This document shows positions 8,279 through 37,202 of a DNA stretch of 37,202 nt, piece by piece; positions within the stretch are counted from its first letter, which is position 1; each line of letters opens with the position of its first letter. Under the pieces are notes generated by a model. The model saw only the letters and a program-made list of their open reading frames with translations, ran no database searches and was not told the origin of the DNA. Both the position numbers and the translations under genes were made by a program. This DNA is from Prevotellaceae bacterium (GTDB lineage: Bacteria; Bacteroidota; Bacteroidia; Bacteroidales; Paludibacteraceae), in the NCBI GenBank assembly GCA_031261165.1, contig JAISJU010000033.1:1-37202 (forward strand), in the 5' to 3' direction.

Positions 8279-8638
8279 ATGATACAGAGAATACAAAGTC
8301 TTTATTTATTGATGGTGGTAGTTATTTCTGCCGTCATATTTTATTTTACGCTTGGCGGAAATATTTTGCAGCCGATACTCACAGCCGGTAGCGCAGTCAT
8401 TGCTTTCATAAGCATTTTTCTTTATAAAAACAGAAACTTGCAGTTAAGGTTTAATCTGCTGAATGTCATTTTGTTTATATTCTTGTTTGGTATGTCATTC
8501 GGTAGTGCCATACGACAAGGGAAAGCAATCAACCCTTTTTCTTATCTGTATATAGTCAATATTGCTTTGACACTTTTTGCCTTTTTTGCCATCAAAAAAG
8601 ACGAAGATTTGGTCAAATCACTGGACAGAATCAGGTAA
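8279..8638 (+). CDS. DUF4293-like small membrane protein
   Basis: MIQRIQSLYLLMVVVISAVIFYFTLGG, several hydrophobic segments. Confidence 0.75.
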   Translation: MIQRIQSLYLLMVVVISAVIFYFTLGGNILQPILTAGSAVIAFISIFLYKNRNLQLRFNLLNVILFIFLFGMSFGSAIRQGKAINPFSYLYIVNIALTLFAFFAIKKDEDLVKSLDRIR

Positions 8639-10064
8639 GCCGCATTCGTATCCGCCATTCATTCGGATAAAGGTTGTTGGCACGGTTGCCCAAGTTTTTC
8701 ACCCAACCGAGCGGCAAACCCTGATACATTATTAACAAGTAGCCGCGCGGTGCATCGGGCGTTTCGATTGCCTCTCTTTGCAAAAAGCGCAGCGCGGTCG
8801 GCAAATCTGCCTCAAAAGTATTCACTTGCAGCAAATCAATATTTTTGGATAACGCCAAAGCCGCCTCAGGAATAAAATCTTTGCCTTTCTGCTCTGCCAA
8901 CGGTATGCCTGCGTGCATTATATTCAGCCTTTTTCTTAAATAATCAATGTCCTCTACCCTATCTTTCGGTAAAGCACTGATTTTATTTCCGTCAATGGAA
9001 ATTGTCCAATTGTTGGGGTTTTTTAGTTGGTTTTTCAGTTCGTCATTGCGGGTTTGGTTACTGAGCGCAGTCGAAGTATGACCCGCAATCCCCTTTTTGC
9101 CCTGTTTCCTATGGGTTTGCGGGTCAAGCCCGCAATGACAGAAAGAAGCAGGGGTTTGCGGGTCAAGCCCGCAATGACGAAAAGAAACAGGGTCAAGCCC
9201 GCAATGGGGGCTTTCCGTTTTCCGCAAAACCGATAGAAAAAATCCCTCGCCCCGCGTTTTGTGCGGATAAAAACGATAGCCGAAATCGGAAGCCGTAATC
9301 CCCCACGCCTCATCAATCCGTATCTGCAATAATTCCGCGCCGAGTTCGCGGATAATCCACTGCACATTTTCCTCATTTTCGGCACGATTGTAAGTGCAGG
9401 TGCTGTAAATCAGTATGCCGTCTGTTTTCAATGCCGACCACACAGCCGTCAAAATATCCCGCTGCCGCTCGGCGCATTTCCGCACGTTGTCCGGCGACCA
9501 CTCGGCTATCGCGCCCTCGTCTTTGCGAAACATTCCCTCGCCCGAACACGGCGCATCGACCAGCACTGCATCGAAAAACGACTGCAAACCGGAAAAATCT
9601 TTCGGCTCATTATTTGTTACAACAACATTCGCATTGCCCCACTTTATCAGATTTTCCGCCAAAATGTACGCCCGCGAACGGATAATTTCATTACTCACCA
9701 AAAGACTGCCGGCGGGCAAAAGCGAAGATAGGTGCGTGGATTTGCCGCCCGGCGCAGCGCAAAGGTCAAGCATACGGACAGGCTCATTAATATGCTGTTT
9801 TACAGCCTGCTCCACAAACATTGATGATGCCTCCTGCACATAATACGCCCCCGCGTGAAAAAGCGGGTCGGCAGTAAAAAGCGGTCTTTCGGGCAGGTAA
9901 AAACCGGTTTCGCACCATTTTACAGTATCTGTCATTGCGGATTGAACTTTGTCATTCAAACGAATGGAAACAGGCGACTCCGTCTGCAATGCCTGCAAGA
10001 AATCGGCGGTTTCTGCGCCCAAAATCGGCTGTATTTGATTGATAAATGCTTGCGGTAAATTCAT
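8631..10064 (-). CDS. RsmF/NOL1-NOP2-sun family rRNA cytosine-C5 methyltransferase, with a repeat-derived insertion
   Basis: RMLDLCAAPGGKSTHLSSLL, VDAPCSGEGMFRKDE, YSTCTYNRAENE motifs; linker encodes HCGLDP repeats. Confidence 0.9.
   Translation of the reverse strand: MNLPQAFINQIQPILGAETADFLQALQTESPVSIRLNDKVQSAMTDTVKWCETGFYLPERPLFTADPLFHAGAYYVQEASSMFVEQAVKQHINEPVRMLDLCAAPGGKSTHLSSLLPAGSLLVSNEIIRSRAYILAENLIKWGNANVVVTNNEPKDFSGLQSFFDAVLVDAPCSGEGMFRKDEGAIAEWSPDNVRKCAERQRDILTAVWSALKTDGILIYSTCTYNRAENEENVQWIIRELGAELLQIRIDEAWGITASDFGYRFYPHKTRGEGFFLSVLRKTESPHCGLDPVSFRHCGLDPQTPASFCHCGLDPQTHRKQGKKGIAGHTSTALSNQTRNDELKNQLKNPNNWTISIDGNKISALPKDRVEDIDYLRKRLNIMHAGIPLAEQKGKDFIPEAALALSKNIDLLQVNTFEADLPTALRFLQREAIETPDAPRGYLLIMYQGLPLGWVKNLGNRANNLYPNEWRIRMRLT
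9034..9210. repeat. Array of GCGGGTCAAGCCCGCAATGAC palindromic repeats inside a coding sequence
   Basis: Four related copies, ORF stays open. Confidence 0.85.
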
Positions 10065-23889: not shown

Positions 23890-24027
23890 ATGAATAAATT
23901 TTTGCAGTGGGCAATATTGCCCTATTACCGTATAAAATACGGAAAACAGGAACACTATAATGTTCCGATACAACCGATACGCTATTTTTGGTGGCGAATA
24001 AAACGCAGGGTAATTTCAAAGAAATAA
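23890..24027 (+). CDS. Possible 45-aa basic aromatic protein at the element edge
   Basis: MNKFLQWAILPYYRIKYGKQEHYNVPIQPIRYFWWRIKRRVISKK; TACCTTTG at 23872-23879 upstream. Confidence 0.35.
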   Translation: MNKFLQWAILPYYRIKYGKQEHYNVPIQPIRYFWWRIKRRVISKK

Positions 24028-24028
24028 C

Positions 24029-24322
24029 CTATTTATAAGTTAAAGTTGACACGCAAAAATTGGACTTGTTTGGGTTGTCGGATTTGGACACATTATTTTC
24101 CCATTGCAGGGGCTGCAGGTTTGAAATATTATCTGTGCCGCCTTTGCTTTCGGGCTTTATGTGGTCTATCTCCCAACCTTTGTTGTGCGAACGATTGCCG
24201 TATTGGTCGCGCTGCATTATTGCACCGCATACATCAAAACGGTGTGTGTTTGGATTAAATCCCTGCTTGGTATTTCCTTTTTCCCAAACTTGTTGAATTT
24301 GTTGTTCTGTAAAATTTGCCAT
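24029..24322 (-). CDS. HNH endonuclease
   Basis: FDVCGAIMQRDQYGNRSHNKGWEIDHIKPESKGGTDNISNLQPLQWENNVSKSD. Confidence 0.88.
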   Translation of the reverse strand: MANFTEQQIQQVWEKGNTKQGFNPNTHRFDVCGAIMQRDQYGNRSHNKGWEIDHIKPESKGGTDNISNLQPLQWENNVSKSDNPNKSNFCVSTLTYK

Positions 24323-24415
24323 AGTATTTTGGTTTTAAAGTTTTGTTTTTGTTTGCAAGTCAAAAGACTTACTTTTAACCGCGACATAGGCAGAGCCTGT
24401 GCCGAACGAGGGTTA

Positions 24416-24598
24416 TTATTCTTTGGTTTTTTTATTTTTTTTGATTATTTTATTAATGAAAGAAAATATAATAGATAATAAGAATATTCCACCAAAAATA
24501 ATAATGAAAGCAATAATATCGCCCAAAATAGAGCCTGCTGCCAAATCATATTCAATCATTGTTTGGTAATCCAATAATATAAATAGTGGTATTTTCAT
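24416..24598 (-). CDS. Small membrane protein
   Basis: 60 aa with central hydrophobic helix ILGDIIAFIIIFGGIFLLSIIFSF. Confidence 0.45.
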   Translation of the reverse strand: MKIPLFILLDYQTMIEYDLAAGSILGDIIAFIIIFGGIFLLSIIFSFINKIIKKNKKTKE

Positions 24599-24667
24599 AG
24601 TATTTTTGTTTTAAAGTTTTATTGTTTTGTTATTTATGCACACCAATTATAAATTGGCGCGAGCGGA

Positions 24668-25318
24668 TTATCTTTTAAATTTTCCAATAAGAAATGGGAT
24701 GCCGATAAACAAAAAAAGAAATATAATAATAGACCACAAACCAATCTGTTTAGTAATATACTCTCCAAAAAGAAGATAACAATAAATAATTGATAATACT
24801 ATAATGCCACCCAATATATTAGCAAAGAAGTTAAATCTACGTTCTTTCGCTCTGCGCTTAAGTTCCAATGCTCTTGACAAACGACCATTTTCTTTTATAT
24901 ACTCATCGGAAAGCCATTTATAATTAATTTTCAAGCAATAATCACAGTCTTCATTTTTATCAAATATAATATTTGAATGAAAAATCTTATATGGTATGTT
25001 ATGTGTACTTTGCATCTCAAACAATATTTCGTCTCTACTGTTAGAAATATTGGTATTTAATTGATTTTTTTCCAAAAAATAATCAAGTTTAAAAACATCT
25101 TCTTTTATTTTACTCAAAACATCAGAAAATAACGTTTCATCTATTTTTATTTTTTCTATAAAATTATGATAATGTTGCAAGTTATTGCAATTTAATTTGA
25201 CGGCTGACAAAAGTTCGCGCATATTAGACAAACTATATTCTAAATAATATAAATTAGTAAGCCTATTATCATAAGTATTATAGTCAGATTTTGATAGATA
25301 TTTTTCACGCTCTTTCAT
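24668..25318 (-). CDS. Uncharacterised protein with helical N-terminal region and two C-terminal TM helices
   Basis: 216 aa; FFANILGGIIVLSIIYCYLLF and IGLWSIIIFLFLFIGIPFLI. Confidence 0.65.
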   Translation of the reverse strand: MKEREKYLSKSDYNTYDNRLTNLYYLEYSLSNMRELLSAVKLNCNNLQHYHNFIEKIKIDETLFSDVLSKIKEDVFKLDYFLEKNQLNTNISNSRDEILFEMQSTHNIPYKIFHSNIIFDKNEDCDYCLKINYKWLSDEYIKENGRLSRALELKRRAKERRFNFFANILGGIIVLSIIYCYLLFGEYITKQIGLWSIIIFLFLFIGIPFLIGKFKR

Positions 25319-25342
25319 TGTTGATTAATATTTAAAATTTCA

Positions 25343-25663
25343 TTAAAATATTGCTGTCCACGACAAAATATTAAAAATAACAATTCCAATCACTGCTAAT
25401 AGTGCGATAAATACATTCTTTCCGATAGGGTTAATTAGCCCACCGATAGCACTTGCTACTATAAATAATAACACGGAATGCCACCACGTTATAATAAAGA
25501 AAGAAGTTATTACTAATGCAGCAAAAGACAGAAAGCCCAAAAAGGCTGCAACTGTTAGAAACATTTTAGCATTCGCCGAAGAGCCTTTAAATGATAAGTT
25601 CCCCGCATTTATAAGAAATGCACAAACTCCACTAAGTACGATGTAATAATAAAAATTTTGCAT
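25343..25663 (-). CDS. Multi-TM small membrane protein
   Basis: 106 aa, three to four hydrophobic segments. Confidence 0.6.
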   Translation of the reverse strand: MQNFYYYIVLSGVCAFLINAGNLSFKGSSANAKMFLTVAAFLGFLSFAALVITSFFIITWWHSVLLFIVASAIGGLINPIGKNVFIALLAVIGIVIFNILSWTAIF

Positions 25664-25667
25664 AATG

Positions 25668-25961
25668 TTATTTTTTTAATTGGTTAATAAATTCATTTTG
25701 TTGTTTCTCATACTCTCCTACTTTTCCATAGATTGTCAATTTTGTATTTTTGACAAAAAAATAGAACGGACCATCCCAATTTCCTGATGGTTTAGTTTTA
25801 TTCTGGTGTGGATAAACAATACACCAACAATCACTATCAGAAAATAACTCATACGCCTTTTCGGGATGTTTCTGGGCTAATTGCCAAAACTTATTATTTC
25901 CCAACTTGCTTATTATTATCAATAAGACAATAACAGCCACAACTAATAAAATCCAAATCAT
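25668..25961 (-). CDS. Membrane-anchored small protein
   Basis: N-terminal TM MIWILLVVAVIVLLIIISK followed by soluble domain. Confidence 0.6.
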   Translation of the reverse strand: MIWILLVVAVIVLLIIISKLGNNKFWQLAQKHPEKAYELFSDSDCWCIVYPHQNKTKPSGNWDGPFYFFVKNTKLTIYGKVGEYEKQQNEFINQLKK

Positions 25962-25965
25962 AATA

Positions 25966-26499
25966 TTATTTATTTAAAAGGTTGAAAATTCTATCATTTA
26001 AGGTGTTTATTTTCTCATCTTTTTTGTCAATCTTATTGAGCAACTCAACTATTAGATTGTCTTTTTCTTTGATTATGTCTTCTTTTTCTCTTATGACAGC
26101 ATCTTTTTCTTTGAGGGCGTTGCTGCCGTCTGCTATTATTAGGTCTTTTTGTTTGAGAGCCGTGTCAAGTTCTGAGATTATTCTCTCTTTTTCTGCAACT
26201 AAATCGAAACAGTCATTGATGCTTATATTGTTTTCTTTGACTGTTTTTCCATTAAACTGCAGATTGTGTCCAACATTGTTTCTCTGCATTGAATTATCGG
26301 AATTAGTATTTTCGCCCAACAAATAACCGACACTTACACCCAAAATTCCTGCAATTTTTTGTACGATTGAAAATTTTATGCTATCCGCATTCAGCATTTT
26401 ACTTAAATTTTGCTGCGACATATCCATTTTTTCAGCAAGACCAGTAACCCCAAGACCCTGAATTTTAGCCTCTTTTTTAATATAGTCAACTATATCCAT
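25966..26499 (-). CDS. XRE/CI-like transcriptional repressor with long coiled-coil tail
   Basis: IQGLGVTGLAEKMDMSQQNLSKMLNADSIKFSIVQKIAGILGVSVGYLLGENT HTH; C-terminal heptad-like KEKDxIIxEK repeats. Confidence 0.88.
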   Translation of the reverse strand: MDIVDYIKKEAKIQGLGVTGLAEKMDMSQQNLSKMLNADSIKFSIVQKIAGILGVSVGYLLGENTNSDNSMQRNNVGHNLQFNGKTVKENNISINDCFDLVAEKERIISELDTALKQKDLIIADGSNALKEKDAVIREKEDIIKEKDNLIVELLNKIDKKDEKINTLNDRIFNLLNK

Positions 26500-26530
26500 A
26501 TAATTATTTTTTGCGTATTAATATAATTTA

Positions 26531-26573
26531 ACAACTAATATTTTGTAAATACAACTAATTAGTCGTATTTTTG
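26531..26573 (+). promoter_or_regulatory. Rightward promoter (TTTG-N20-TATTTTTG) with operator-like ACAACTAAT direct repeats and ACTAATTAGT palindrome
   Basis: Direct repeats at 26531 and 26551 (20 bp apart); palindrome 26554-26563 in the promoter spacer. Confidence 0.55.
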
Positions 26574-26605
26574 CCTCGTCAAATTAACCCGACAACCCCG
26601 GACAT

Positions 26606-26683
26606 AAAAAAAGCCTGCTCGTTTTTGAAGCGAGATTTTGGGTGGTGCTAAAATTTAGGCGACAAATGTAAGCAGACTTTTTT
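26606..26683 (+). ncRNA. Structured leader or small RNA ending in terminator-like stem
   Basis: AAAAAAGCCTGCT ... AGCAGACTTTTTT closing stem (one mismatch), inner CTCG/CGAG hairpin; just downstream of the 26566 -7 element. Confidence 0.45.
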
Positions 26684-26725
26684 AATTGTCCAAAAAAATT
26701 TTTATGTTGTAAAACATATTATAAT

Positions 26726-26893
26726 ATGGTAATCATCAGGAAAGAGGTAGAGATACATTATAACAGATATGCTGTCCGCGACGTAGGTTGTTACGCAGAC
26801 GCATATATTGACAAAAAGATAGAAAGAATTTATTTTTTGTCGTTCTTGATTAAAGAAAAAATTCAATCAAACTCTTTCTATAAGGCTGACTAA
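26726..26893 (+). CDS. Possible 55-aa small protein
   Basis: MVIIRKEVEIHYNRYAVRDVGCYADAYIDKKIERIYFLSFLIKEKIQSNSFYKAD; overlaps the convergent 26867 CDS by 27 bp. Confidence 0.35.
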   Translation: MVIIRKEVEIHYNRYAVRDVGCYADAYIDKKIERIYFLSFLIKEKIQSNSFYKAD

Positions 26894-27058
26894 TTTGTCA
26901 TAAGGCAAATCAACCTCCAACGCGGAAGACCGCTCATTTGGACTGCCGAGTGAAAAAATAATCATTGATTTGCCTTCACTTTCCTTGATAAGGGAAATGC
27001 TTGAAAGATTGACAAAGCGGCGTTCACCGCCGGAGGTTAGTTGAATAAATTTACTCAT
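26867..27058 (-). CDS. Small conserved-looking protein, unknown function
   Basis: 63 aa; TATATTTG -7-like element on minus strand at 27133-27140. Confidence 0.5.
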   Translation of the reverse strand: MSKFIQLTSGGERRFVNLSSISLIKESEGKSMIIFSLGSPNERSSALEVDLPYDKLVSLIERV

Positions 27059-27222
27059 AGTTCTTTTGGTTTAGAGAAAAAAATAGTTGTCCCTGTTTTT
27101 CCGCAGAGATTAAGTGATGTTTATTTCGGGCGCAAATATACGACTATTTTTTTAAAAACGTAAATACATTTTGAAAATTATTGCCGCCCTTCGCTATACC
27201 GCGGCAAATAAAAATAACAAAG

Positions 27223-27281
27223 ACTTCCGAGAGGAGACAGAGAAAGCGAAGGCTCTGTTTTTCTCTCGGAAGTTGTTTTTT
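27223..27281 (+). ncRNA. Attenuator/terminator-like hairpin upstream of the 27307 CDS
   Basis: ACTTCCGAGAG(27223-27233)/CTCTCGGAAGT(27263-27273) with inner ACAGAG/CTCTGT, then T-run. Confidence 0.5.
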
Positions 27282-27306
27282 ATTAAAATTAAAAAGGAGA
27301 AAAATT

Positions 27307-27660
27307 ATGAAAAAGAGAATTGCAAACCAAAACAAAAAAAAGCAACCGTTGGTTGATTTTGTAAAAAATCAACAGAAATCTGAAATCAACAAAGGAGAGC
27401 AATCTAAAGTTGAAAGGTTGAAAATGGTAATACAAAAAATTGACGAATATTTCGACAAAAATTGGGAAGATGGAGATAGGTACTATACACGGTATTATGA
27501 ATCAGAACAAACAAACGGAATGTATATAATAGGAATAGAATATATGAATGGCTGGGATGTAGATTATGATTATGAAGACACATTTTTAATCAGTAAAACA
27601 AAATATTCCGATTTTTTGCAAAAGATAATCAATTTGAATGGATTTAAGGCAGCGGCATAA
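27307..27660 (+). CDS. Hypothetical protein (start refined from 27181 to 27307)
   Basis: AAAGGAGAAAAATTATG Shine-Dalgarno-like start; acidic C-terminal part. Confidence 0.6.
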   Translation: MKKRIANQNKKKQPLVDFVKNQQKSEINKGEQSKVERLKMVIQKIDEYFDKNWEDGDRYYTRYYESEQTNGMYIIGIEYMNGWDVDYDYEDTFLISKTKYSDFLQKIINLNGFKAAA

Positions 27661-27800
27661 TTGGGGGATTGCGGGTCTTTGCCCGCAATGACGGAGGAAA
27701 TGGGGGAAGACTTTAAGGACAAAAAGGACTTTAAGGACTGAAAGATGATGGAACAGGTGTGCCGAATGTGGGTCTTTGCCCGCAATGACGGAGGATTAAA
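27661..27800. repeat. Two direct copies of ATTGCGGGTCTTTGCCCGCAATGACGGAGG-like palindromic repeat plus GGACTTTAAGGAC segment
   Basis: Copies near 27667-27700 and 27770-27795. Confidence 0.75.
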
Positions 27801-27802
27801 AA

Positions 27803-27875
27803 GAGTGCAGTATCATTCAAAAGTGGCAACTTTTGAAACGCGGCGGATGCGAGTTCGACTCTCGCCTGCACTCCA
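27803..27875 (+). ncRNA. tRNA-like sequence without recognisable D/anticodon arms
   Basis: GAGTGCAG(27803-27810)/CTGCACTC(27866-27873) acceptor-like stem; GCGAG-TTCGACT-CTCGC T-arm (27849-27865); 9-bp hairpin TTCAAAAGT-GGCA-ACTTTTGAA (27816-27837). Confidence 0.5.
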
Positions 27876-27881
27876 AAAAAA

Positions 27882-27920
27882 GAAATAACCAAGAGGGCGT
27901 ATGTAATACGCCCCTACAAA
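27882..27920 (+). repeat. Palindromic leader repeat, copy 1 (AACCAAGAGGGCGTATGTAATACGCCCCTACAAA)
   Basis: Near-identical to copies at 28824 and 33857. Confidence 0.85.
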
Positions 27921-27945
27921 ACCAAAATATTTAAAATTTAAAATT

Positions 27946-28812
27946 ATGGCAAAAATTACAGCCTACAAAGGGCACGACAAAGACTTTAAATGTCGCGGAT
28001 TTCAATATGAAGTCGGAAAAGAGTATGAAGAAGATGAAGCGAGCATTTGCAATAGCGGATTTCACGCCTGCGAAAACCCTATCGACGTTTTCGGGTACTA
28101 TGCCCCGGCGGACGGAAGATATTCCGAAGTAGAATTAGATGCCAACAATGAGACAGACGATGATTCCAAAAGAGTTGGGAAAAAAATTAAAATAAAGTCC
28201 GAAATAGGAATTAATGGAATTGTCGACGCCTTTTTGAAATTTACATTTGAAAAAATAGATTTTTTAGAAAAAGCGGCAACCAACACCGGCTGCCGGTCAG
28301 CGGCAACCAACACCGGCTACCAGTCGGCGGCAACCAACATCGGCAACCAGTCAGCGGCAACCAACACCGGCAACCGGTCAGCGGCAACCAACACCGGCGA
28401 CCAGTCAGCGGCAACCAACACCGGCAACCGGTCAGCGGCAACCAACACCGGCGACCGGTCAGCGGCAACCAACACCGGCTACCGGTCAGCGGCAACCAAC
28501 ACCGGCGACCGGTCAGCGGCAACCAACACCGGCTACCAGTCAGCGGCAACCAACACCGGCAGCCGGTCAGCGGCAACCAACACCGGCAGCCAGTCAGCGG
28601 CAACCGTAGAAGGAAAATACTCTGTGGCTTGTGCGCTGGGCATAAGGTCAAAAGCGAGAGCCAATAAAGGCTCTGCGATAGTAGTTGCCGAAAGAAATGA
28701 TAATGGTGATTTGCTGGAGATTAAGGCGGCAATAGTTGATGGCGTTTTGCTAAAAGAGAATACGTTTTATTTGCTTGTAAACGGCGAATTAGTGGAAGAA
28801 AAAGAGGTTTAA
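27946..28812 (+). CDS. DUF7666-like phage protein with 9-residue tandem repeats AATNTGxxS
   Basis: KITAYKGHDKDFKCRGFQYEVGKEYEEDEASICNSGFHACENPIDVFGYYAPADGRYSEVE; 12 repeat units. Confidence 0.75.
   Translation: MAKITAYKGHDKDFKCRGFQYEVGKEYEEDEASICNSGFHACENPIDVFGYYAPADGRYSEVELDANNETDDDSKRVGKKIKIKSEIGINGIVDAFLKFTFEKIDFLEKAATNTGCRSAATNTGYQSAATNIGNQSAATNTGNRSAATNTGDQSAATNTGNRSAATNTGDRSAATNTGYRSAATNTGDRSAATNTGYQSAATNTGSRSAATNTGSQSAATVEGKYSVACALGIRSKARANKGSAIVVAERNDNGDLLEIKAAIVDGVLLKENTFYLLVNGELVEEKEV
28273..28596 (+). repeat. 12 in-frame tandem 27-bp units GCGGCAACCAACACCGGC-NRC-CRG-TCA
   Basis: Units enumerated by eye; two differences outside the three variable columns. Confidence 0.95.
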
Positions 28813-28823
28813 GATAAACAAGA

Positions 28824-28864
28824 CAAATAACCAAGAGGGCGTATGCAATACGCCCCTACAAATC
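28824..28864 (+). repeat. Palindromic leader repeat, copy 2 (AAATAACCAAGAGGGCGTATGCAATACGCCCCTACAAATCAAA)
   Basis: Identical to copy 3 across the palindrome. Confidence 0.9.
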
Positions 28865-28872
28865 AAAAAATT

Positions 28873-29577
28873 ATGGCAACTAAAAAATTTGCATTGCACA
28901 ATTCCTATTTCAAAGTAAGCCGGATGAACGGCTTGCCGGATACGATGATTGAGATAGCGGAATATTTGAAAGAACACGGCGAATTGCCGTTCCGGTATGA
29001 TGGCAATAACTGGGTGTATGATGCTTTTGTTGAGCGGCAGAAGTATAGGGGTGTGGCTAATTCGCAATACCTGACGCCTGATGCAACAGCGGATAGAATG
29101 ATGCACTTTGCGGGGAAATATTTTACAGAGAATAACGTGTTAGAGCCGTGCTGCGGGACAGGGCAGATTACTAAGGAATTGCTGAAAGATGGTTACAACG
29201 TGATTACGTTTGACAATGATAAAGACCTGTGCGAAGTGGCAATAAAAACGCTTGATTTGTTCGGAAAAAGCAATTGTACTGTTTTGTCGCTTGATTTTAA
29301 AAATTATGAGCAAGAGGATACTCACCGCAATCAGATTATTGCCAATCCGCCCTACGAAATTGCAGAATTGACGAATTTCTTGGAATGGATTGCCGAGATA
29401 CAGAACTGTGGCGGCATTTCAATTTTGCTGATGCCAAAAGGGTTTATCAATAAAGACAAGCCGAAACGGACTTTTAATGTGCTGCGCAAGTTTGGCGTGC
29501 TGGAAGTGGAGGATATGCAGGAAGAGTTTGCGCGGACAAAAACGCGGGCAGAAATTGTGGTGTTGAAGAAATTATAA
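28873..29577 (+). CDS. Class I SAM-dependent DNA methyltransferase-like protein (start refined to 28873)
   Basis: NVLEPCCGTGQITKELLKDGYNVITFDND motif I and IIANPPYEIAELTNF NPPY motif; likely N6-adenine type. Confidence 0.82.
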   Translation: MATKKFALHNSYFKVSRMNGLPDTMIEIAEYLKEHGELPFRYDGNNWVYDAFVERQKYRGVANSQYLTPDATADRMMHFAGKYFTENNVLEPCCGTGQITKELLKDGYNVITFDNDKDLCEVAIKTLDLFGKSNCTVLSLDFKNYEQEDTHRNQIIANPPYEIAELTNFLEWIAEIQNCGGISILLMPKGFINKDKPKRTFNVLRKFGVLEVEDMQEEFARTKTRAEIVVLKKL

Positions 29578-29597
29578 CTTTTAAAAAACAGGGAATT

Positions 29598-29894
29598 ATG
29601 GACTTTGGGGACGGAAGGGACATTAAGGGACACGCCTATAACAAAAAGGAATTTTTGCTGCCGGAAGGACTTCATTCTTGCGCGTTTTATCAGACGAAGA
29701 TTGAGGAAGACGGGGTGCATTATAAGGTGCGCATTCACGACTGTAACAGGGGGATTTGTCTGAATGGGGATTTGAGTACGAAACTGGGGCGGCGCGAGGC
29801 GGTTAATAAACTGAATGCGCTGATTAATGGGCTTGGTGAATTTCGGGATTTTATTTACAATAACTACTTGATATATGACTGCAAAGCAACCTGA
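29598..29894 (+). CDS. Hypothetical phage-type protein
   Basis: Intact ORF in same-strand gene array. Confidence 0.55.
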   Translation: MDFGDGRDIKGHAYNKKEFLLPEGLHSCAFYQTKIEEDGVHYKVRIHDCNRGICLNGDLSTKLGRREAVNKLNALINGLGEFRDFIYNNYLIYDCKAT

Positions 29895-30072
29895 TATTGA
29901 ATTAACGCACCGATACAGTCGGTTGGAGGCGGCGGAACTGCTGGAAATGAGCGTGCGGAATTTTGACCGCTTGAAACAGATGGGGCAGATTACTACGCAT
30001 TACCGGAAGGCTAATAATAGACCGTTCTTTTTGGGAAGCGAGGTGCTGCGGGTTTGGCGGGAGAGTTATTGA
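29875..30072 (+). CDS. Helix-turn-helix (MerR/excisionase-like) small protein
   Basis: YSRLEAAELLEMSVRNFDRLKQMGQITTHYRKANNRPFFLGSEVLRV. Confidence 0.6.
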   Translation: MTAKQPDIELTHRYSRLEAAELLEMSVRNFDRLKQMGQITTHYRKANNRPFFLGSEVLRVWRESY

Positions 30073-30137
30073 TTAGACGCGAGATTTTAGACTTTAGACA
30101 CAAGACACAAGACTTTAGACACAAGACACGAGACTTT
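30070..30137. repeat. Short satellite of (T)TAGACACAAGAC units
   Basis: ttagactttagacacaagacacaagactttagacacaagacacgagac. Confidence 0.75.
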
Positions 30138-30164
30138 TTGAAATATAACAATAATTAAAAATTT

Positions 30165-30368
30165 ATGATTATGAAAATTAGACTTACAAAATCGGAAAAA
30201 ATATCATCGTTGGCTTTGATTGGGCTGATGATATTGATTGTCGGGGCGGTGGGTGTGAATATCGCTCGGGCGGTGTGGGAGCATAGTGCTTCGGAAGTGT
30301 ATTTGTTTTGGTGGCTGATACCGGCACTGCTTGGGCTGATGTTTTGGCATATATTGGTTAATGAATAA
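30165..30368 (+). CDS. Small membrane protein
   Basis: Two hydrophobic segments. Confidence 0.5.
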   Translation: MIMKIRLTKSEKISSLALIGLMILIVGAVGVNIARAVWEHSASEVYLFWWLIPALLGLMFWHILVNE

Positions 30369-30380
30369 AAAAACGAGAGT

Positions 30381-30899
30381 ATGAAAGCATTAACCGTAAA
30401 ACAGCCATACGCACACTTGATATGCAAGGGTATTAAGGACGTGGAGAATCGGACTTGGAAAACGAATTTTCGAGGGCGGGCGCTGATACACGCGGGAAAG
30501 ACGGTTATACAGCCGACATTCGCGGTTGCGGGACAGGCAACGGCGGAAGAAATAGAATTTTCCACTGCGGTAAATTTCGTTGAGGAAAATGATTTGACAG
30601 GCGCAATAATCGGCTCGGTTGAAATAGTTGACTGTGTGAGAAATTATAAATCAATTTGGGCGGTGCCTGATATGTGGCACTGGGTGCTTGCAAATGCTGT
30701 TATGTTTGAAAGCCCGATGCCTAATGTGAAGGGGAGGTTGGGTTTTTGGGAGAGTGGCTATGATGAAATAGACTGTCCTGAGTGCGGAAGTAGGCAATTG
30801 CACAACTTTATGGATGGCGGCATACCGGAATTGGGCTGGGGGAATCCGGTGCATAAATGCGAGTTTTGCGAGAATTGGATTTTAGAGAGTGAGTTTTAA
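30381..30899 (+). CDS. ASCH (PUA-like) domain protein with C-terminal zinc-ribbon-like motif
   Basis: MKALTVKQPYAHLICKGIKDVENRTWKTNFRGRALIHAG; CPECGSRQ ... KCEFCENW. Confidence 0.85.
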   Translation: MKALTVKQPYAHLICKGIKDVENRTWKTNFRGRALIHAGKTVIQPTFAVAGQATAEEIEFSTAVNFVEENDLTGAIIGSVEIVDCVRNYKSIWAVPDMWHWVLANAVMFESPMPNVKGRLGFWESGYDEIDCPECGSRQLHNFMDGGIPELGWGNPVHKCEFCENWILESEF

Positions 30900-31045
30900 T
30901 TTTAAAAATAAAATATTATGAAATTAACAATTTTCAAAATTATGAAAATGCAACCTGCAGTACGGTTAAGTCAGCGGTTGAATGGGCGAAAGACAGGGTA
31001 TTCACTTATGATGAATTAGTAAGTAACTATCCACAAGCAAAAGAT

Positions 31046-31771
31046 ATGGATTATCTCTTGAAATATCTTAAACCTGAATATTATCAGGAGTTTTTTGACG
31101 CCAATCTTAAAGCCGAATGTATTGAAAATATTGATATGATAAGAAAAACTCTCAGCAGTTTTAGATATAAATCAGAATTTTTCGATAAACAATCCAAAGA
31201 ACTCAGCAAAAAATTGTTGGATGCGCGGCTATTTGAAACAAAAGAGTATAACGAAAATTGGTTTATGACCACTGCTAATAGAATGTACGGAAATCCTGTA
31301 TCTCACATAATGCAAACGTTATATGATGGAAAATACAACTGCAGACCTTACTTCTCAGAAAGTAAATTTAAAGATTCAATGAAAAAATGTCTTTGTTCGT
31401 TGATACAGAGCATAGAATTTAAAGATGGGGATTTTGAATATATATGCAAAAATCTAAATTACGGAGGTTGGTTTCATAAAAACTTCATTTATTATACGAT
31501 AATCAGCGTCAAAAACTATTCGGCTATAAAATATTTTGAGAAATATTTTAATTTTAAACCATTCATACTAAAAAAACAAAGGATGTATGAAAATATAAGA
31601 TTTCGAGTTGCTATTGACAATAAATGGCAATATTTGAAATGCACCTGCTTTGAGCCGGAAAATGATAAAATTAGATTTGTTACCGAGTATTCTGAAAAAC
31701 AAAAAAAATATTGTTTTACTCACAAAGAGTTTATGAATTTTTTTAAAGAACTTGAAGTAGATTTTAAATAA
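31046..31771 (+). CDS. Hypothetical protein
   Basis: 241-aa intact ORF. Confidence 0.55.
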   Translation: MDYLLKYLKPEYYQEFFDANLKAECIENIDMIRKTLSSFRYKSEFFDKQSKELSKKLLDARLFETKEYNENWFMTTANRMYGNPVSHIMQTLYDGKYNCRPYFSESKFKDSMKKCLCSLIQSIEFKDGDFEYICKNLNYGGWFHKNFIYYTIISVKNYSAIKYFEKYFNFKPFILKKQRMYENIRFRVAIDNKWQYLKCTCFEPENDKIRFVTEYSEKQKKYCFTHKEFMNFFKELEVDFK

Positions 31772-31776
31772 ATATT

Positions 31777-31926
31777 ATGAAGACAGCAAAAGAGGCAGCA
31801 AGAGAATATGCTTTGGAAACAAATGGCATAGATTTCAACACCGAAAATATTGAAAAAGCATTTTTGGCGGGAGTTAGATTTACACAATCTTGGATAAATG
31901 TAGCAGACGAAATGATTTTGTATTAA
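31777..31926 (+). CDS. Small phage-type protein (49 aa)
   Basis: MKTAKEAAREYALETNGIDFNTENIEKAFLAGVRFTQSWINVADEMILY. Confidence 0.55.
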   Translation: MKTAKEAAREYALETNGIDFNTENIEKAFLAGVRFTQSWINVADEMILY

Positions 31927-31945
31927 TAAAAAATACCGATAGTAT

Positions 31946-32107
31946 ATGAAAATAAGAATTATAAAGATATTCATTAAGAATACGCAAGAGGTAAAAATTA
32001 TCAAACCAATGGAAAAGATTATTGATTTGAAAGATTTGGAGAGTTTTCGCCAATCGTTTGTTGAGGCGGGCAGTAGTGTGTTATTTACATACGAGGAGTT
32101 AGGATAA
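31946..32107 (+). CDS. Small protein (53 aa)
   Basis: MKIRIIKIFIKNTQEVKIIKPMEKIIDLKDLESFRQSFVEAGSSVLFTYEELG; TAATG overlap with next gene. Confidence 0.45.
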   Translation: MKIRIIKIFIKNTQEVKIIKPMEKIIDLKDLESFRQSFVEAGSSVLFTYEELG

Positions 32108-32490
32108 TGAAGGTGTATATATCTGTACCGATAAGCGGACGAGCGCGGGAGGGTGTTTGTCTTGATGTGGCTGAGGCGATGCTGTATCTGAATGCGCACT
32201 TTGAGGAGGTGGAAACGATTAATCCGCTGGATTTGGGGGTGTGGCTGGATAAGGCACTGAGATTGCGGACGCGGGCGCGTAATGGCGGTGGGACAATAGG
32301 GACTTCAGGGACAGATGGGGCTGAAGATGAAGCGAGATGTGGGGACTATATGGGGTATGATTTGTCGGTGCTAATAAATGATGCTGATGCGGTGGCGTTC
32401 TGTAAGAATTGGATATACTCGAAAGGCTGCAGGCTGGAACACGCGGCGGCGGAGATTTATGGGAAGAGGATGATATTTTTGAATGAATAA
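32107..32490 (+). CDS. DUF4406 (nucleoside deoxyribosyltransferase-like) protein with a repeat-like insertion
   Basis: MKVYISVPISGR ... DYMGYDLSVLINDADAVAFCKNWIYSKGCRLEHAAAEIYGKRMIF. Confidence 0.8.
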   Translation: MKVYISVPISGRAREGVCLDVAEAMLYLNAHFEEVETINPLDLGVWLDKALRLRTRARNGGGTIGTSGTDGAEDEARCGDYMGYDLSVLINDADAVAFCKNWIYSKGCRLEHAAAEIYGKRMIFLNE

Positions 32491-32504
32491 AACGAAAAAC
32501 TATT

Positions 32505-32807
32505 ATGGAGATAAAAGAATTTTTAGAAAAGTTTTTGCCCGATTACGAGGTAAGACACAAATATCACATAGAAAAATGGACTGTATCAACTCCAAATGGA
32601 GCGCATACTCTATTTGAATGGAAATTTATTTGTGAGTATTTTCCCAAAGCCCTACAAAACTTCGTAGACAGGATTTGCGAAGAGCAAAAGGGAATTGTAT
32701 TGAGTGATTTTGTTAATTACGTTATGGTAACAGATAACAGTAAAATTACGGCAAATGAACGCGACTGCATTTTAAGAGCCAAACAACCAAAATTGGAGGA
32801 CTTATAG
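32505..32807 (+). CDS. Hypothetical protein
   Basis: 100-aa intact ORF. Confidence 0.5.
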   Translation: MEIKEFLEKFLPDYEVRHKYHIEKWTVSTPNGAHTLFEWKFICEYFPKALQNFVDRICEEQKGIVLSDFVNYVMVTDNSKITANERDCILRAKQPKLEDL

Positions 32808-32873
32808 CGCGCTAAGAATTGAGCAAAATATCCTTCCGTGTAAAAAATTTATACGGAACAAAAATAAAAACTT

Positions 32874-33848
32874 ATGAAAAACTTTAAAGGGAAAGCGATT
32901 TACAACCCTTCGGGCAAAGCGGGCGAATACTCGTATTGGGCTTGTAATTTTTACAACGGTTGCAGCAATGGCTGTACCTATTGCTACTTGAAAAAAGGCG
33001 TATTGGCACATACGCTTGGCGGGGATAAACCCACGCTCAAAAAGTGTTTCAAAGACGAGGCGCACGCGCTTGAAATCTTTGAAAAAGAGTTGAAGGTAAA
33101 TTTGATGAAACTGCAAGAATATGGATTGTTCTTTACCTTTACAAGCGACCCTTTTTTGCCTGAAACTATAACATTGACCGTAAAGGCAATGATTAAATGT
33201 TTATCCAACAATGTGCCTGTAAAAACACTTACCAAAAAAACAGATTGGGTAGAATACTTTTTGCAAGACGAAGAAATTAATAAAAAAAATCTGTGTAAAA
33301 AATTATTTGCTTTCGGATTTACACTCACAGGACACGATGAATTAGAACCAAATGCAAGCACCAATGCAGAACGAATTGAGGCGATGCGGAAACTGCACGA
33401 GGCGGGATTTAAGACTTGGGCGAGCATTGAGCCGGTGATTGATTTTGAGAGTAGTTTGCAAATGATTGAAGAAACGAAAGATTTTTGCAGCCATTATAAA
33501 ATAGGACTGAAAAGTGGAAAAAAATATAATTTTGAAGAACTGAACTATTTTGTATCAAATGTGGTTTTTACCTTTTCAAAGCCAAATGATTTTCAAAAAA
33601 ATCCAATGAAACAAATTTTTTCCCCCTATGGAAAGTGGGATTTTTTTAATAAAATATATTTCAAAGACAGTTTGCTAAAACAGGCAGGTCTAAACCGTAG
33701 CATATTGCCGGACAACTGCGTAAAGAGGGATTGGAGTATTTTTGGATTGAAATATCTTTTGGAAGTATATAGGAGATGGAAAGATTGCGGGTCGGATTCC
33801 GCAATGACAAACGATTCGACTTCGCTCACCGACCGGGATAAAGAATGA
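32874..33848 (+). CDS. DUF5131 / SPL-like radical SAM family protein
   Basis: YSYWACNFYNGCSNGCTYCYLKKGVL (CX3CX2C cluster); C-terminal tail overlaps a palindromic repeat. Confidence 0.82.
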   Translation: MKNFKGKAIYNPSGKAGEYSYWACNFYNGCSNGCTYCYLKKGVLAHTLGGDKPTLKKCFKDEAHALEIFEKELKVNLMKLQEYGLFFTFTSDPFLPETITLTVKAMIKCLSNNVPVKTLTKKTDWVEYFLQDEEINKKNLCKKLFAFGFTLTGHDELEPNASTNAERIEAMRKLHEAGFKTWASIEPVIDFESSLQMIEETKDFCSHYKIGLKSGKKYNFEELNYFVSNVVFTFSKPNDFQKNPMKQIFSPYGKWDFFNKIYFKDSLLKQAGLNRSILPDNCVKRDWSIFGLKYLLEVYRRWKDCGSDSAMTNDSTSLTDRDKE

Positions 33849-33856
33849 CAGAAAAT

Positions 33857-33899
33857 AAATAACCAAGAGGGCGTATGCAATACGCCCCTACAAATCAAA
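33857..33899 (+). repeat. Palindromic leader repeat, copy 3
   Basis: Same ~45-bp block as at 28824-28864. Confidence 0.9.
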
Positions 33900-33904
33900 T
33901 AATT

Positions 33905-34120
33905 ATGAAAGAAAGAGTGAATTTTAACAAGAGCGTCAAAATATATGATGCTTGCGCCTCGGATAACGCAAGGGCTTATCTGGGCTGTGTGAATTTTGTT
34001 GATGGGTATATGATTGCCTCAAATGCGCATATATTGGTGTTCAACAAATTAAATGAAGTTTGCAATTTGGATTTAGAGCAACTAAGAATTGGTATGCCCG
34101 AAGAAATGAAAGAAATATAG
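33905..34120 (+). CDS. Hypothetical phage-type protein, possibly C-terminally truncated
   Basis: MKERVNFNKSVKIYDACASDNARAYLGCVNFVDGYMIASNAHILVFNK; 340-nt non-coding region follows. Confidence 0.5.
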   Translation: MKERVNFNKSVKIYDACASDNARAYLGCVNFVDGYMIASNAHILVFNKLNEVCNLDLEQLRIGMPEEMKEI

Positions 34121-34217
34121 CAAAATTTAGGGGGCAGCCCACGAGGGAGTGGCGTATTCTTTTTAGGTTGTGAATTGCTTTCAAAAATTATATCACAAAA
34201 AATAAAAAAAGAATGAG

Positions 34218-34413
34218 GCGGGAGCGATACCCGCGCTGCTTACGAAGTCCGAACAAGAGCAACGACAAACAAGAGTGCTGCGGTAGGTTTGTCGGATTAG
34301 GAGCGCAGATAGATGTGGCACGCTATCACGGGGAGGCGCAACCCTGTAGATATGCCGACTGGATTAATTAGAAAAGGCGATAAGCGCAAAAGCCGAGTGG
34401 GGGCGGTGCCCAC
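34218..34413 (+). ncRNA. Candidate structured non-coding RNA region
   Basis: No ORF >60 aa on the track; stems GCGGG/CCCGC (34218-34234), CGACAAAC/GTTTGTCG (34263-34270/34287-34294), GTGGG/CCCAC (34397-34413). Confidence 0.35.
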
Positions 34414-34473
34414 AATCCAACAAAAAGGACTTTAAGGACTTTAAGGACTTTAAAAGAAAGAAAATTGAAAATT

Positions 34474-35217
34474 ATGACACACGGCTCATTATTCAGCGGC
34501 ATAGGCGGATTTGATTTGGCGGCACGGCGGGCGGGGCTGCGGAATGTGTTTTGGTGTGAGAATGACGAGTTCTGCCGGAAGGTGCTGCGAAAGCATTTTT
34601 GGCACAGTAATCAATTAAACGATATAAAGAATGAAGATTTTACACGATACAGAGGGCGAGTTGATGTTGTTTCGGGAGGATTTCCCTGCCAAGACATCAG
34701 TATTGCCGGAAAACAGGCGGGACTTACGGAGGGCAAAAGGAGTTCGCTGTTCTTCGAGATGGTCAGGGCGGTGGCAGAAGTGCAACCAAAATTTGTTGTT
34801 TGGGAAAATGTGCCTGAAGTCATTAATTACCTCGACATTATTAGAGATGAAATGCGGGCTGTCGGGTATAATAATATGTGGGGAAGAATGTTTTGTGCGT
34901 GGGAATTTGGATACCCGCATAAGAGAAAGAGATTTTTTGCCGTACATTTTGCCGACACCGAGTGCAACGGACTGGATAAGGCATCATACCTCGATGACTA
35001 CGCGGATAAAATGTTACAATCAGAAACACAGATTCGGAAACTTAACCACAATATTGGCAGGGCGTTTTGGAATATTACACACTGCGAAGATTTCAGAAGA
35101 GATGATGGGCTTTCCAATAAATTGGTGCAAAATCAGTTAAAGGGGTATGGGAATGCTATTGTGCCGGATATTGGGGAGTTGATATTTAGGGGGTTGAAAA
35201 CATTTATTAGCCGATAA
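34474..35217 (+). CDS. DNA cytosine-C5 methyltransferase (Dcm-like; start refined to 34474)
   Basis: MTHGSLFSGIGGFDLAARRAG, VVSGGFPCQDISIAGKQAGL, FVVWENV, LKGYGNAIVPDIGE. Confidence 0.9.
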   Translation: MTHGSLFSGIGGFDLAARRAGLRNVFWCENDEFCRKVLRKHFWHSNQLNDIKNEDFTRYRGRVDVVSGGFPCQDISIAGKQAGLTEGKRSSLFFEMVRAVAEVQPKFVVWENVPEVINYLDIIRDEMRAVGYNNMWGRMFCAWEFGYPHKRKRFFAVHFADTECNGLDKASYLDDYADKMLQSETQIRKLNHNIGRAFWNITHCEDFRRDDGLSNKLVQNQLKGYGNAIVPDIGELIFRGLKTFISR

Positions 35218-35220
35218 ATA

Positions 35221-36381
35221 ATGTATGACCATATTCGCCTGCATCTTAATCATACTTTTGAAAATGATAACGAGCGCAAGAAATTTTGCGAGCGGTATCA
35301 TTTGTGTGAATTTAATGAACATCAATCGACCTATAACAATTCAACGGAAACGGGGCTGAAACAGTGTCGAGGGGTTTATGTGAAGATGAGGCTCAGTAAC
35401 CGTACTTCGGCTTCGCTCAGTAACCGCAGTTCGACTTCGCTCACTGACCGGAAGGACTTTGGGGACAGTAGGGAAAATAGGGGGTTGCGGGTCGGAGCCC
35501 GCAATGACGGTGGCACACAGGTTGATGTGGGACTGATGTTTTCGTTTTCGCTGCATAAGTTTTATAATTTCAGCGTGCCGACTGTGGGGGAATATTTGAA
35601 TTGGGATGATTTTAGTTTTGGTAAGGCGAACAGGGCGAAGACTATGTTTTGCGATATGTTTCCGATGTGTGATTTTTCTCGGGCAAAGGTAACGACTTAT
35701 GAGGTGGGCATTAATATACAGTTGCCGCGCCCGCCGCAGGAATATATGGAGCAGTTGCGGGAGTTGCGGGTGAAAGAACGGAATTACCCCATTGTGGTGG
35801 ACAGGCACCAGAAGGATTATATGCAGTATGGGACATTCTCAAAGGGCAGGCGGATAGTGTATATATGGTACGACAAGACTTATGAGGCGCGGAGTAAGAT
35901 GCGCAGTAATTTGGTAAGGTATGTTGTGCCGGAGAATATTTTGCGCTGCGAAAAGGATAATCGAGTGCCGATACAGAAGACTATGTTTTTTGATTTGTTC
36001 AAAAAGGAGTTTCAACGCTTGACGGCAAATGAGTTTCGCAAGCGGTTTGTAGATGATATTTTTTTTGCCGAAAGAGTGCCAAAAGTGTGCCAACGGAATT
36101 TTCCTGATTTGGGAAAGGCGAAGTTGGCGATTTTAGAAGAGATTTTGAGGGATTTGAGGGACTTAAAGGACATTAGAGACGCGGGGGAAAGGGTTTTTGC
36201 GCGGATTGAGAAAGAATACAATGCCGGAATGCTGCCGAGGCGAACTTATTACCGCCGCGTGGCGGAAGTGAAAGAGGTGTTGGCATTGCTGCCGGGACTG
36301 CCGAAAGAGGTGTTGAATGAGAATGTGGATTATGAGAATGATTATAAAATGGCTGTTAGGGCTAAAATGGAGGTGTTATGA
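35221..36381 (+). CDS. Putative phage/plasmid replication-protein-like protein with a repeat-derived insertion
   Basis: SKGRRIVYIWYDKTYEARSKMRSNLVRYVVPENILR reminiscent of filamentous-phage-type replication proteins; assignment weak. Confidence 0.4.
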   Translation: MYDHIRLHLNHTFENDNERKKFCERYHLCEFNEHQSTYNNSTETGLKQCRGVYVKMRLSNRTSASLSNRSSTSLTDRKDFGDSRENRGLRVGARNDGGTQVDVGLMFSFSLHKFYNFSVPTVGEYLNWDDFSFGKANRAKTMFCDMFPMCDFSRAKVTTYEVGINIQLPRPPQEYMEQLRELRVKERNYPIVVDRHQKDYMQYGTFSKGRRIVYIWYDKTYEARSKMRSNLVRYVVPENILRCEKDNRVPIQKTMFFDLFKKEFQRLTANEFRKRFVDDIFFAERVPKVCQRNFPDLGKAKLAILEEILRDLRDLKDIRDAGERVFARIEKEYNAGMLPRRTYYRRVAEVKEVLALLPGLPKEVLNENVDYENDYKMAVRAKMEVL

Positions 36382-37199
36382 ATAACAATTACAATATATA
36401 TCAGAAAATAGACGAAATATGTGCGCGATTAGAAGGCTTTCGGGCATTCAATCCTAAACTTGCAAAACTATCGTACAGTGGCGGGCGGGACAGTCATTTA
36501 TTGTTGCATATTTTGAGAAATGTTTTAAAATTAAACAACGAGCAATTTCCCGCCATATATGCAAAAACTTACAATGAATTTGCCGAGATAAAGCATAGAA
36601 TTGAGGAACAGGATATTACGGTTGTAGATAGCGGACGGCGGGTATTTGAAGTGTTTGAGGAAGTTGGAGTTCCATTGTGGAGTAAAGATTGCTCGGTGAA
36701 TATTTATTACGCCTCAAAAAATGAAAAAAAATACACCAAACGGTGGGCAAAAAAATCAAAATCGCAATGGAATTTTACAGATAATTATTTTTGGTGTAAA
36801 AAAAATAATATAATCTGTTCGGATAAATGTTGTAAATTATTGAAAGAGAATATTTTGAATAAAAATAAAGCGCGAGTTGTCGGATTACGAGAAGAAGAAG
36901 GCGGTCGCCGGTCAGAAGGTCAGAAAGAATATGATTTTTGTGTAAGAAATTCAAAAGTGTTATTCAAACCGATTTTTGATGTTACTAATTCCGAACTTAT
37001 GGAAATAGAAAAGGCTTTGAGAATTGAACCATTAAATATATACAACTATTTAGACCGTACAGGGTGCGTAATGTGTGGTTTTGGGACAAAAAAGCAGATT
37101 GCTAAAAAAATAAACTATTTGCGTTGGTATGAACCAAGTAGAGCGGCATTTTATCTCAAATATTTTGACAAGTATTTGAGGTATAGGAAGATAATATAA
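36378..37199 (+). CDS. Phosphoadenosine-phosphosulfate-reductase-family PP-loop protein
   Basis: LAKLSYSGGRDSHLLLHILRNVL PP-loop; YLDRTGCVMCGFGTKKQIAKKINYLRWYEPSRAAFYLKYFDKYLRYRKI; ATGA overlap with upstream gene. Confidence 0.85.
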   Translation: MNNNYNIYQKIDEICARLEGFRAFNPKLAKLSYSGGRDSHLLLHILRNVLKLNNEQFPAIYAKTYNEFAEIKHRIEEQDITVVDSGRRVFEVFEEVGVPLWSKDCSVNIYYASKNEKKYTKRWAKKSKSQWNFTDNYFWCKKNNIICSDKCCKLLKENILNKNKARVVGLREEEGGRRSEGQKEYDFCVRNSKVLFKPIFDVTNSELMEIEKALRIEPLNIYNYLDRTGCVMCGFGTKKQIAKKINYLRWYEPSRAAFYLKYFDKYLRYRKII

Positions 37200-37202
37200 C
37201 TA

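Follow-up and report, generated by a model that had tools for sequence, protein, structure and literature searches.

In phage Mu (com-mom) and in Escherichia coli (dcm-vsr), the gene for an accessory protein of DNA modification partly overlaps, in a different frame, the gene for the modification enzyme. Genes B, E, and K of phiX174 are nested and overprinted, a de novo protein having arisen from the second frame of an older gene. We describe here a reading frame, B, nested at +1 inside a phage C5-cytosine DNA methyltransferase (MTase) gene, frame A, found in a 37,202-nt stretch of DNA (contig JAISJU010000033.1; the window). The com-mom and dcm-vsr overlaps are short and lie at gene ends, whereas B is fully nested, occupies about two-thirds of the MTase, and has no family match to those systems; unlike the phiX174 overprints, B is found in tailed double-stranded DNA phages, is 150 to 390 amino acids long, and is kept across phages of many bacterial phyla.

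The nearest published case that we found is the ShiLan domain (PMC11855218), an HNH homing endonuclease encoded out of frame within methylases of mycobacteriophages; in that case, too, a phage DNA methylase gene contains a second reading frame. ShiLan is a mobile insertion of sporadic occurrence, its HNH nuclease being encoded in the inserted stretch; B, by contrast, involves no insertion and no HNH match, and it overlaps the conserved MTase core across a whole clade. The nested ORF itself has been annotated record by record: it is "g50 internal gene" and "g55 internal gene" in Redbud and Shelly, two phages of Paenibacillus larvae, and "putative Mte8-like protein" in Escherichia phage K1ind3. 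A literature search, in which most subscription papers were out of reach, found no published analysis of its dual coding. Prokaryotic gene callers usually exclude long same-strand nested genes, and almost no annotation shows B.

Two reading frames in one methyltransferase gene

Frame A encodes an orphan C5-cytosine methyltransferase from a phage or prophage, with motifs I, IV (GGFPCQD), VI (ENV), VIII, and GNAIVP all present. The first-pass annotation had described two MTase-like frames here, and its description of both was accurate: B lies exactly at +1 to A, and the same DNA reads ADTEC or LPTPSA and, further on, RDDGLS or EEMMGFP. The features are as follows.

34474..35217, + strand: frame A, C5-cytosine DNA methyltransferase, 247 aa, intact, ATG start (PF00145, E = 4.9e-40; phrog_363, E = 7.6e-59; within the B+ clade of the A tree)
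34631..35140, + strand: frame B, putative nested overlapping gene, +1 to A, 169 aa, ATG at 34631 (phrog_1008, E = 3.6e-7; same-offset tblastn matches; profile and openness tests)
34664..34699 (approximate limits), + strand: B N-terminal motif MLFREDFPAKTS (family LTLFxEDxxASxxxxPG; sequence compared with family consensus)
34933..34938, + strand: T6 run, proposed slippage site; unconserved (a run of at least six T there in 2/188 loci), with no role supported
34949..34975 (approximate limits), + strand: B motif LPTPSATDW (family LPTPxAxD; sequence compared with family), opposite A residues ADTECNGL
35066..35140 (approximate start), + strand: B C-terminal motif GILHTAKISEEMMGFPINWCKIS (family GxLNPxFVEEMMGFPxxWT; family comparison), opposite A ITHCEDFRRDDGLSNKL

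The dual-frame resemblance had been placed at 34922 to 35140. It is real but extends well beyond that interval, beginning at about 34658 (near B residue 10, opposite MTase motif IV), and the match of the window B to phrog_1008 spans B residues 10 to 129. The DNA that encodes the N-terminal motif MLFREDFPAKTS is also the DNA for MTase motif IV in frame A; the region of the C-terminal motif GILHTAKISEEMMGFPINWCKIS is the best-conserved part of B.

The surrounding part of the window (24000 to 37202) is prophage-like. It carries a Cro/C1-type regulator (25966 to 26499, minus strand), a DUF7666 protein with a repeat array (27946 to 28812), an ASCH protein, a DUF4406 or deoxyribosyltransferase-like protein, an SPL-like radical SAM protein, and a phage-type PAPS reductase (36378 to 37199). 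Short similar stretches, cttcgctcactgaccgg and gagcccgcaatgac, are found at 33780 to 33850, at the end of one ORF, and at 35400 to 35520, inside the ORF at 35221 to 36381; a stretch resembling them also occurs in the ORF at 8631 to 10064, and all of these resemble small dispersed repeats that have made their way into coding sequence.

Distribution of the nested frame

A tblastn search with the window B found seven Porphyromonas gingivalis phages, with E values down to 5e-8, where A also matches and the +1 offset is the same; B is 42% identical over its C-terminal 72 amino acids, and A is 37% identical overall. Full A and B pairs were found in two Bacteroidales genomes, whose B proteins served as the starting queries for two scans of IMG/VR that yielded 107 loci. 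In all but one of these, B lies at +1 within an A ORF, and it is mostly 180 to 400 amino acids long. Retrieval with B could bias such a set, and an alignment of A alone was therefore also used as the query: B was present in 80/80 of the loci so retrieved. When the B-fetched and A-fetched sets are combined, both A and B are present in 197/198 loci, and the offset is always +1. No B lacking an A gene was found in the loci inspected, A being broken in a few. The window A protein, used as a query against viral contigs, gave no match to the pattern.

A genome scan keyed to B returned 398 relatives, and nearly all of the best 80 of these 398 have A and B nested at +1. The contig titles of those 80 name Bacteroidota, Bacillota, Pseudomonadota, Desulfobacterota, Acidobacteriota, Verrucomicrobiota, Synergistota, Chlorobiota, Nitrospirota, Chloroflexota, Parcubacteria, and Eggerthellales, single assignments being unsure because they depend on the binning of metagenome-assembled genomes. 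Judged from these sequences, the hidden candidate gene spans phages and prophages of about ten bacterial phyla. Isolated phages with B include those of P. larvae, Lacticaseibacillus, Vibrio, Synechococcus, Sulfitobacter, Mycobacterium, Escherichia, Klebsiella, Salmonella, and Xanthomonas. Several are tractable, among them E. coli K1H, BASEL Bas74/76/78, the Mycobacterium smegmatis F1 phages, and the P. larvae Fernviruses.

Selection on B as a protein

Open frames and motifs in B were compared with a null made by shuffling synonymous codons within each A gene, which leaves the A protein and its codon usage unchanged. The 170 open codons of the window B were matched by only 7 of 20,000 shuffles. 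In each of 103 loci, the openness of B was reached by at most 5/200 shuffles, and in 81% of loci by none; the third frame in the same test was at chance. Scored with a profile built without the cluster under test, the window B reached 53.4 bits, against 10.6 ± 4.7 for its shuffles (maximum, 21.3), so the two pairs of motifs noticed at the outset are indeed not a coincidence. The real B scored above every one of its own shuffles in 29/29 clusters, and likewise in 80/80 loci fetched with A. About 26 other C5-MTases of Bacteroidia chromosomes, among them the second MTase from the window's own genome, gave B-frame openness and B scores equal to those of shuffles and have no B.

Substitution patterns in A change where B overlaps it. 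Among 22 independent pairs, differences per first, second, and third codon position of A were.143/.078/.141 inside B, against.068/.034/.274 and.088/.059/.313 in the two A-only ends. The share of changes falling on the first position was higher inside B in 45/45 usable independent pairs (p = 6e-14). Near relatives of the window, the Porphyromonas phages L006 and L007, differ at the third position in 43/175 codons inside B and in 23/38 and 17/28 outside it. In the target recognition domain (TRD) inside B, 49 pairs gave.358/.236/.259 per A codon position, so that the third position of B is the freest; these TRDs are highly variable, and B is stop-free across them over 150 to 390 codons. In the few pairs from mycobacteriophages and E. 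coli Kagunaviruses, which have short A-only flanks, suppression at third positions is less strong or uncertain.

Codon choice at conserved residues of A points the same way. Relative synonymous-codon entropy was 0.69 inside B and 0.95 outside (p = 1.7e-4). Near-fixed codons inside B include Ala GCT (184/188), Gly GGG (174/177), Pro CCC (139/141), and Asp GAC (137/137), the last three of which sit opposite the C-terminal motif of B; usage of synonymous codons in A returns to normal at the B stop. Thus, apart from the few mycobacteriophage and Kagunavirus pairs, where the picture is unclear, synonymous sites of A are suppressed within B only. B is kept by selection at the protein level, at the cost of synonymous sites in A.

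Probable translation start and origin of B

Bacillota-type loci have an internal Shine-Dalgarno sequence before B in 27/29 cases, with 7.8 expected from shuffles; it is typically AAAGGAG, about 5 to 8 nt 5' of the ATG. The corresponding sequence is GGGAGG in P. larvae phages and GGAG in E. coli K1 phages. Bacteroidota loci show no such clear signal (18/24, mostly weak 4-base matches, with 9.8 expected), Shine-Dalgarno sequences being little used there. The window B has none at its start, which is normal for Bacteroidota and hence uninformative. An internal Shine-Dalgarno sequence together with a start codon indicates that B is begun internally rather than reached by frameshifting, and initiation at its own internal start codon is the most likely route, as read from these sequences. 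B is probably translated in the genome of the window.

When a tree was built from the N-terminal domain of the MTases, every B+ MTase fell on one side of a branch with an SH-aLRT value of 99. That side also holds one B- row and two doubtful rows, and L253 looks like a loss of B; the B- MTases were sampled mainly from Bacteroidia, and the tree was midpoint rooted. Because the B+ MTases form one clade, a single ancient overprinting fits. Most likely, B was born a single time, when overprinting took place at the base of one phage C5-MTase clade, and was then kept by selection. Ancient overprinting had been one of several origins put forward for the second frame, and the shuffle nulls, the constraint on synonymous sites of A within B, and the single B+ clade now support it strongly. 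Its companion idea, that one MTase family was born from another by frameshift, does not fit, since no MTase domain was found in B, and compensated frameshifts are at odds with the finding that, in almost every locus examined, A and B are both open from end to end of the overlap.

Properties of the predicted B product

The B family has a median length of 268 amino acids and is basic (median pI, 9.4). Its motifs are LTxxxxDxxASxxxxPGSxxAxKMTxTSGxxCxE, CxLTWKxKxTxxxRLLFQL, a repeated (L/W)PTPxAxD, and GxLNPxFVEWMMGFPxGWTDL. PHROG 1008, labelled "DNA methyltransferase," is matched by the window B (E = 3.6e-7) and by all relatives tested (E = 1e-27 or better); although this family of 329 positions carries an MTase label, the members seen here are the +1 nested product, with no MTase domain found in them. 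Sequence and profile searches of B and its relatives against Pfam, NCBIfam, and the PDB gave no match and no MTase domain, a search for an HNH domain in B gave none, and a PADLOC search of B was also negative.

AlphaFold models of B from two alignments (86 and 125 rows) had pLDDT values of 62 to 64 and a pTM of 0.28, with no confident global fold; the confident parts are the beta hairpin of CxLTWKxKxTxxxRLLFQL and the short C-terminal helix of VEWMMGFP only. A Foldseek search of the predicted B against the PDB gave nothing at E ≤ 0.001. Against BFVD, the sole match passing 0.001 was gp11 of Xanthomonas phage FoX4, itself a B, and two of the three next matches are labelled phage methyltransferases.

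B was also considered as a methyltransferase in its own right, and this was ruled out by the absence of an MTase domain in the Pfam, NCBIfam, and PDB searches. The same searches set aside the earlier reading of frame B as a second common C-terminus of phage Dcm enzymes. Most likely, the "other common phage Dcm C-terminus" of that reading is this very +1 frame, deposited under MTase names; such products include Leyra gp62 and K1H gp33. In the P. larvae phages B appears as "internal gene" or "DNA-cytosine methyltransferase," and records of the E. coli K1 phages call it either "putative Mte8-like protein" or a second "DNA methyltransferase." Some database entries that bear the name "DNA methyltransferase" are therefore not methyltransferases.

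Alternative explanations and the role of B

We consider it very probable that this DNA encodes two proteins, A and a separate nested B, the latter an old, single overprinting that is kept by selection and whose product is perhaps a partner of A. B might instead be a spurious ORF whose motifs and openness mirror the conserved residues and codon bias of A in the +1 frame. Part of B is indeed dictated by the conserved motifs of A (where GAT codons are used, DDG yields MMG), which is why shuffles still reach 50 to 100 bits in well-conserved clades. The real B nevertheless beats all shuffles in every cluster and in every A-fetched locus, other C5-MTases with the same motifs have no B, synonymous constraint on A is confined to B, and Bacillota loci have the internal Shine-Dalgarno sequence, so this explanation is highly improbable. 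Equally improbable is a constraint that acts on DNA or RNA (a regulatory element, RNA structure, or recombination hot spot) and not on the B protein: near-invariant synonymous codons could in principle reflect such a signal, but changes in the TRD favor the third codon position of B (.358 versus.236/.259), B stays stop-free over its length across variable TRDs with a Shine-Dalgarno sequence and start codon ahead of it, and no Rfam family was found in five loci. Only slightly less remote is a programmed frameshift or slippage that fuses the N-terminus of A to B, so that MTases would come with either of two C-termini, as the first-pass annotation had suggested from the T6 run at 34933 to 34938; three isolated loci (L297, L325, and L337) do read from the N-terminus of A into the C-terminus of B. 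Conservation of B, however, begins about 300 nt 5' of the T run, a run of at least six T is present in 2/188 loci with no conserved slippery site, B has its own internal start, preceded by a Shine-Dalgarno sequence in hosts that use one, and its C-terminus matches no known MTase domain.

A fourth alternative concerns only the last, functional step of the explanation that we prefer. B could be a free-standing effector (in anti-restriction, antidefense, or host takeover) that shares the MTase gene for space and coinheritance and does not act on A. B lies within replication or early modules of isolated phages, and short phage genes often serve host takeover; on the other side, no stand-alone B was seen in the loci inspected, and B has no match in Pfam or in PADLOC, which covers defense rather than antidefense genes. 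We regard this as a substantial possibility, though the less probable one. That B was found only alongside A, would share its mRNA, is basic, and has little confident fold favors a partner role over that of an independent effector, but its co-occurrence with A also follows from nesting, which ties the two physically. From model and sequence, B may act with A as an accessory partner of its MTase, a proposal whose chances we judge to be about even.

B lies wholly inside the MTase gene and ends at its own stop; with two proteins encoded as we propose, it would begin at its own internal start codon, and A and B would be made from the same mRNA. Its basic charge and its few confidently predicted elements would suit a protein that folds on the MTase or on DNA as its partner and that tunes, targets, or assists methylation of phage DNA against host restriction. 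A stronger version, to which we give slightly less than an even chance, is that B represents a large, ancient overprinted family in some ten or more phyla, an obligate partner that would alter what the MTase methylates or when. If that were true, phage DNA modification would have a built-in, inseparable accessory that annotation has hidden or mislabelled. B brings an unstudied protein into phage DNA modification, which is one of the main fronts against host restriction; since B runs to 150 to 390 codons and is nearly fixed in its clade, it also offers a clean, deep natural test of two proteins sharing one DNA.

Variant loci

Either A or B is disrupted in a few loci (L204 and L368). L368, 1368, and 1488 (Bacteroides finegoldii plasmid NZ_OY725930.1) have two in-frame TGA codons near the N-terminus of A, with B intact over 303 codons. 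In the IMG/VR contigs L357 to L361, A stops after motif VIII and B continues; the C-termini of both recur in other frames some 300 nt further downstream, which would fit an insertion in the TRD region. No Rfam intron was found for this anomaly, and the five loci searched with Rfam for introns or RNA elements gave nothing. In L350 and F1 mycobacteriophages such as Llama, Seabastian, and Ochi17 (H33 to H41), a frameshift near A residue 116 has led to annotation of the MTase as two genes, the second ORF beginning in the frame of B and continuing into the C-terminus of A. The joined frames of L297, L325, and L337 are natural frameshifts or errors. An intact A ORF is absent from the annotation of L214, a Paenibacillus plasmid, and both this plasmid and a second one, L215, carry another B-like C-terminal tail downstream of the B stop.
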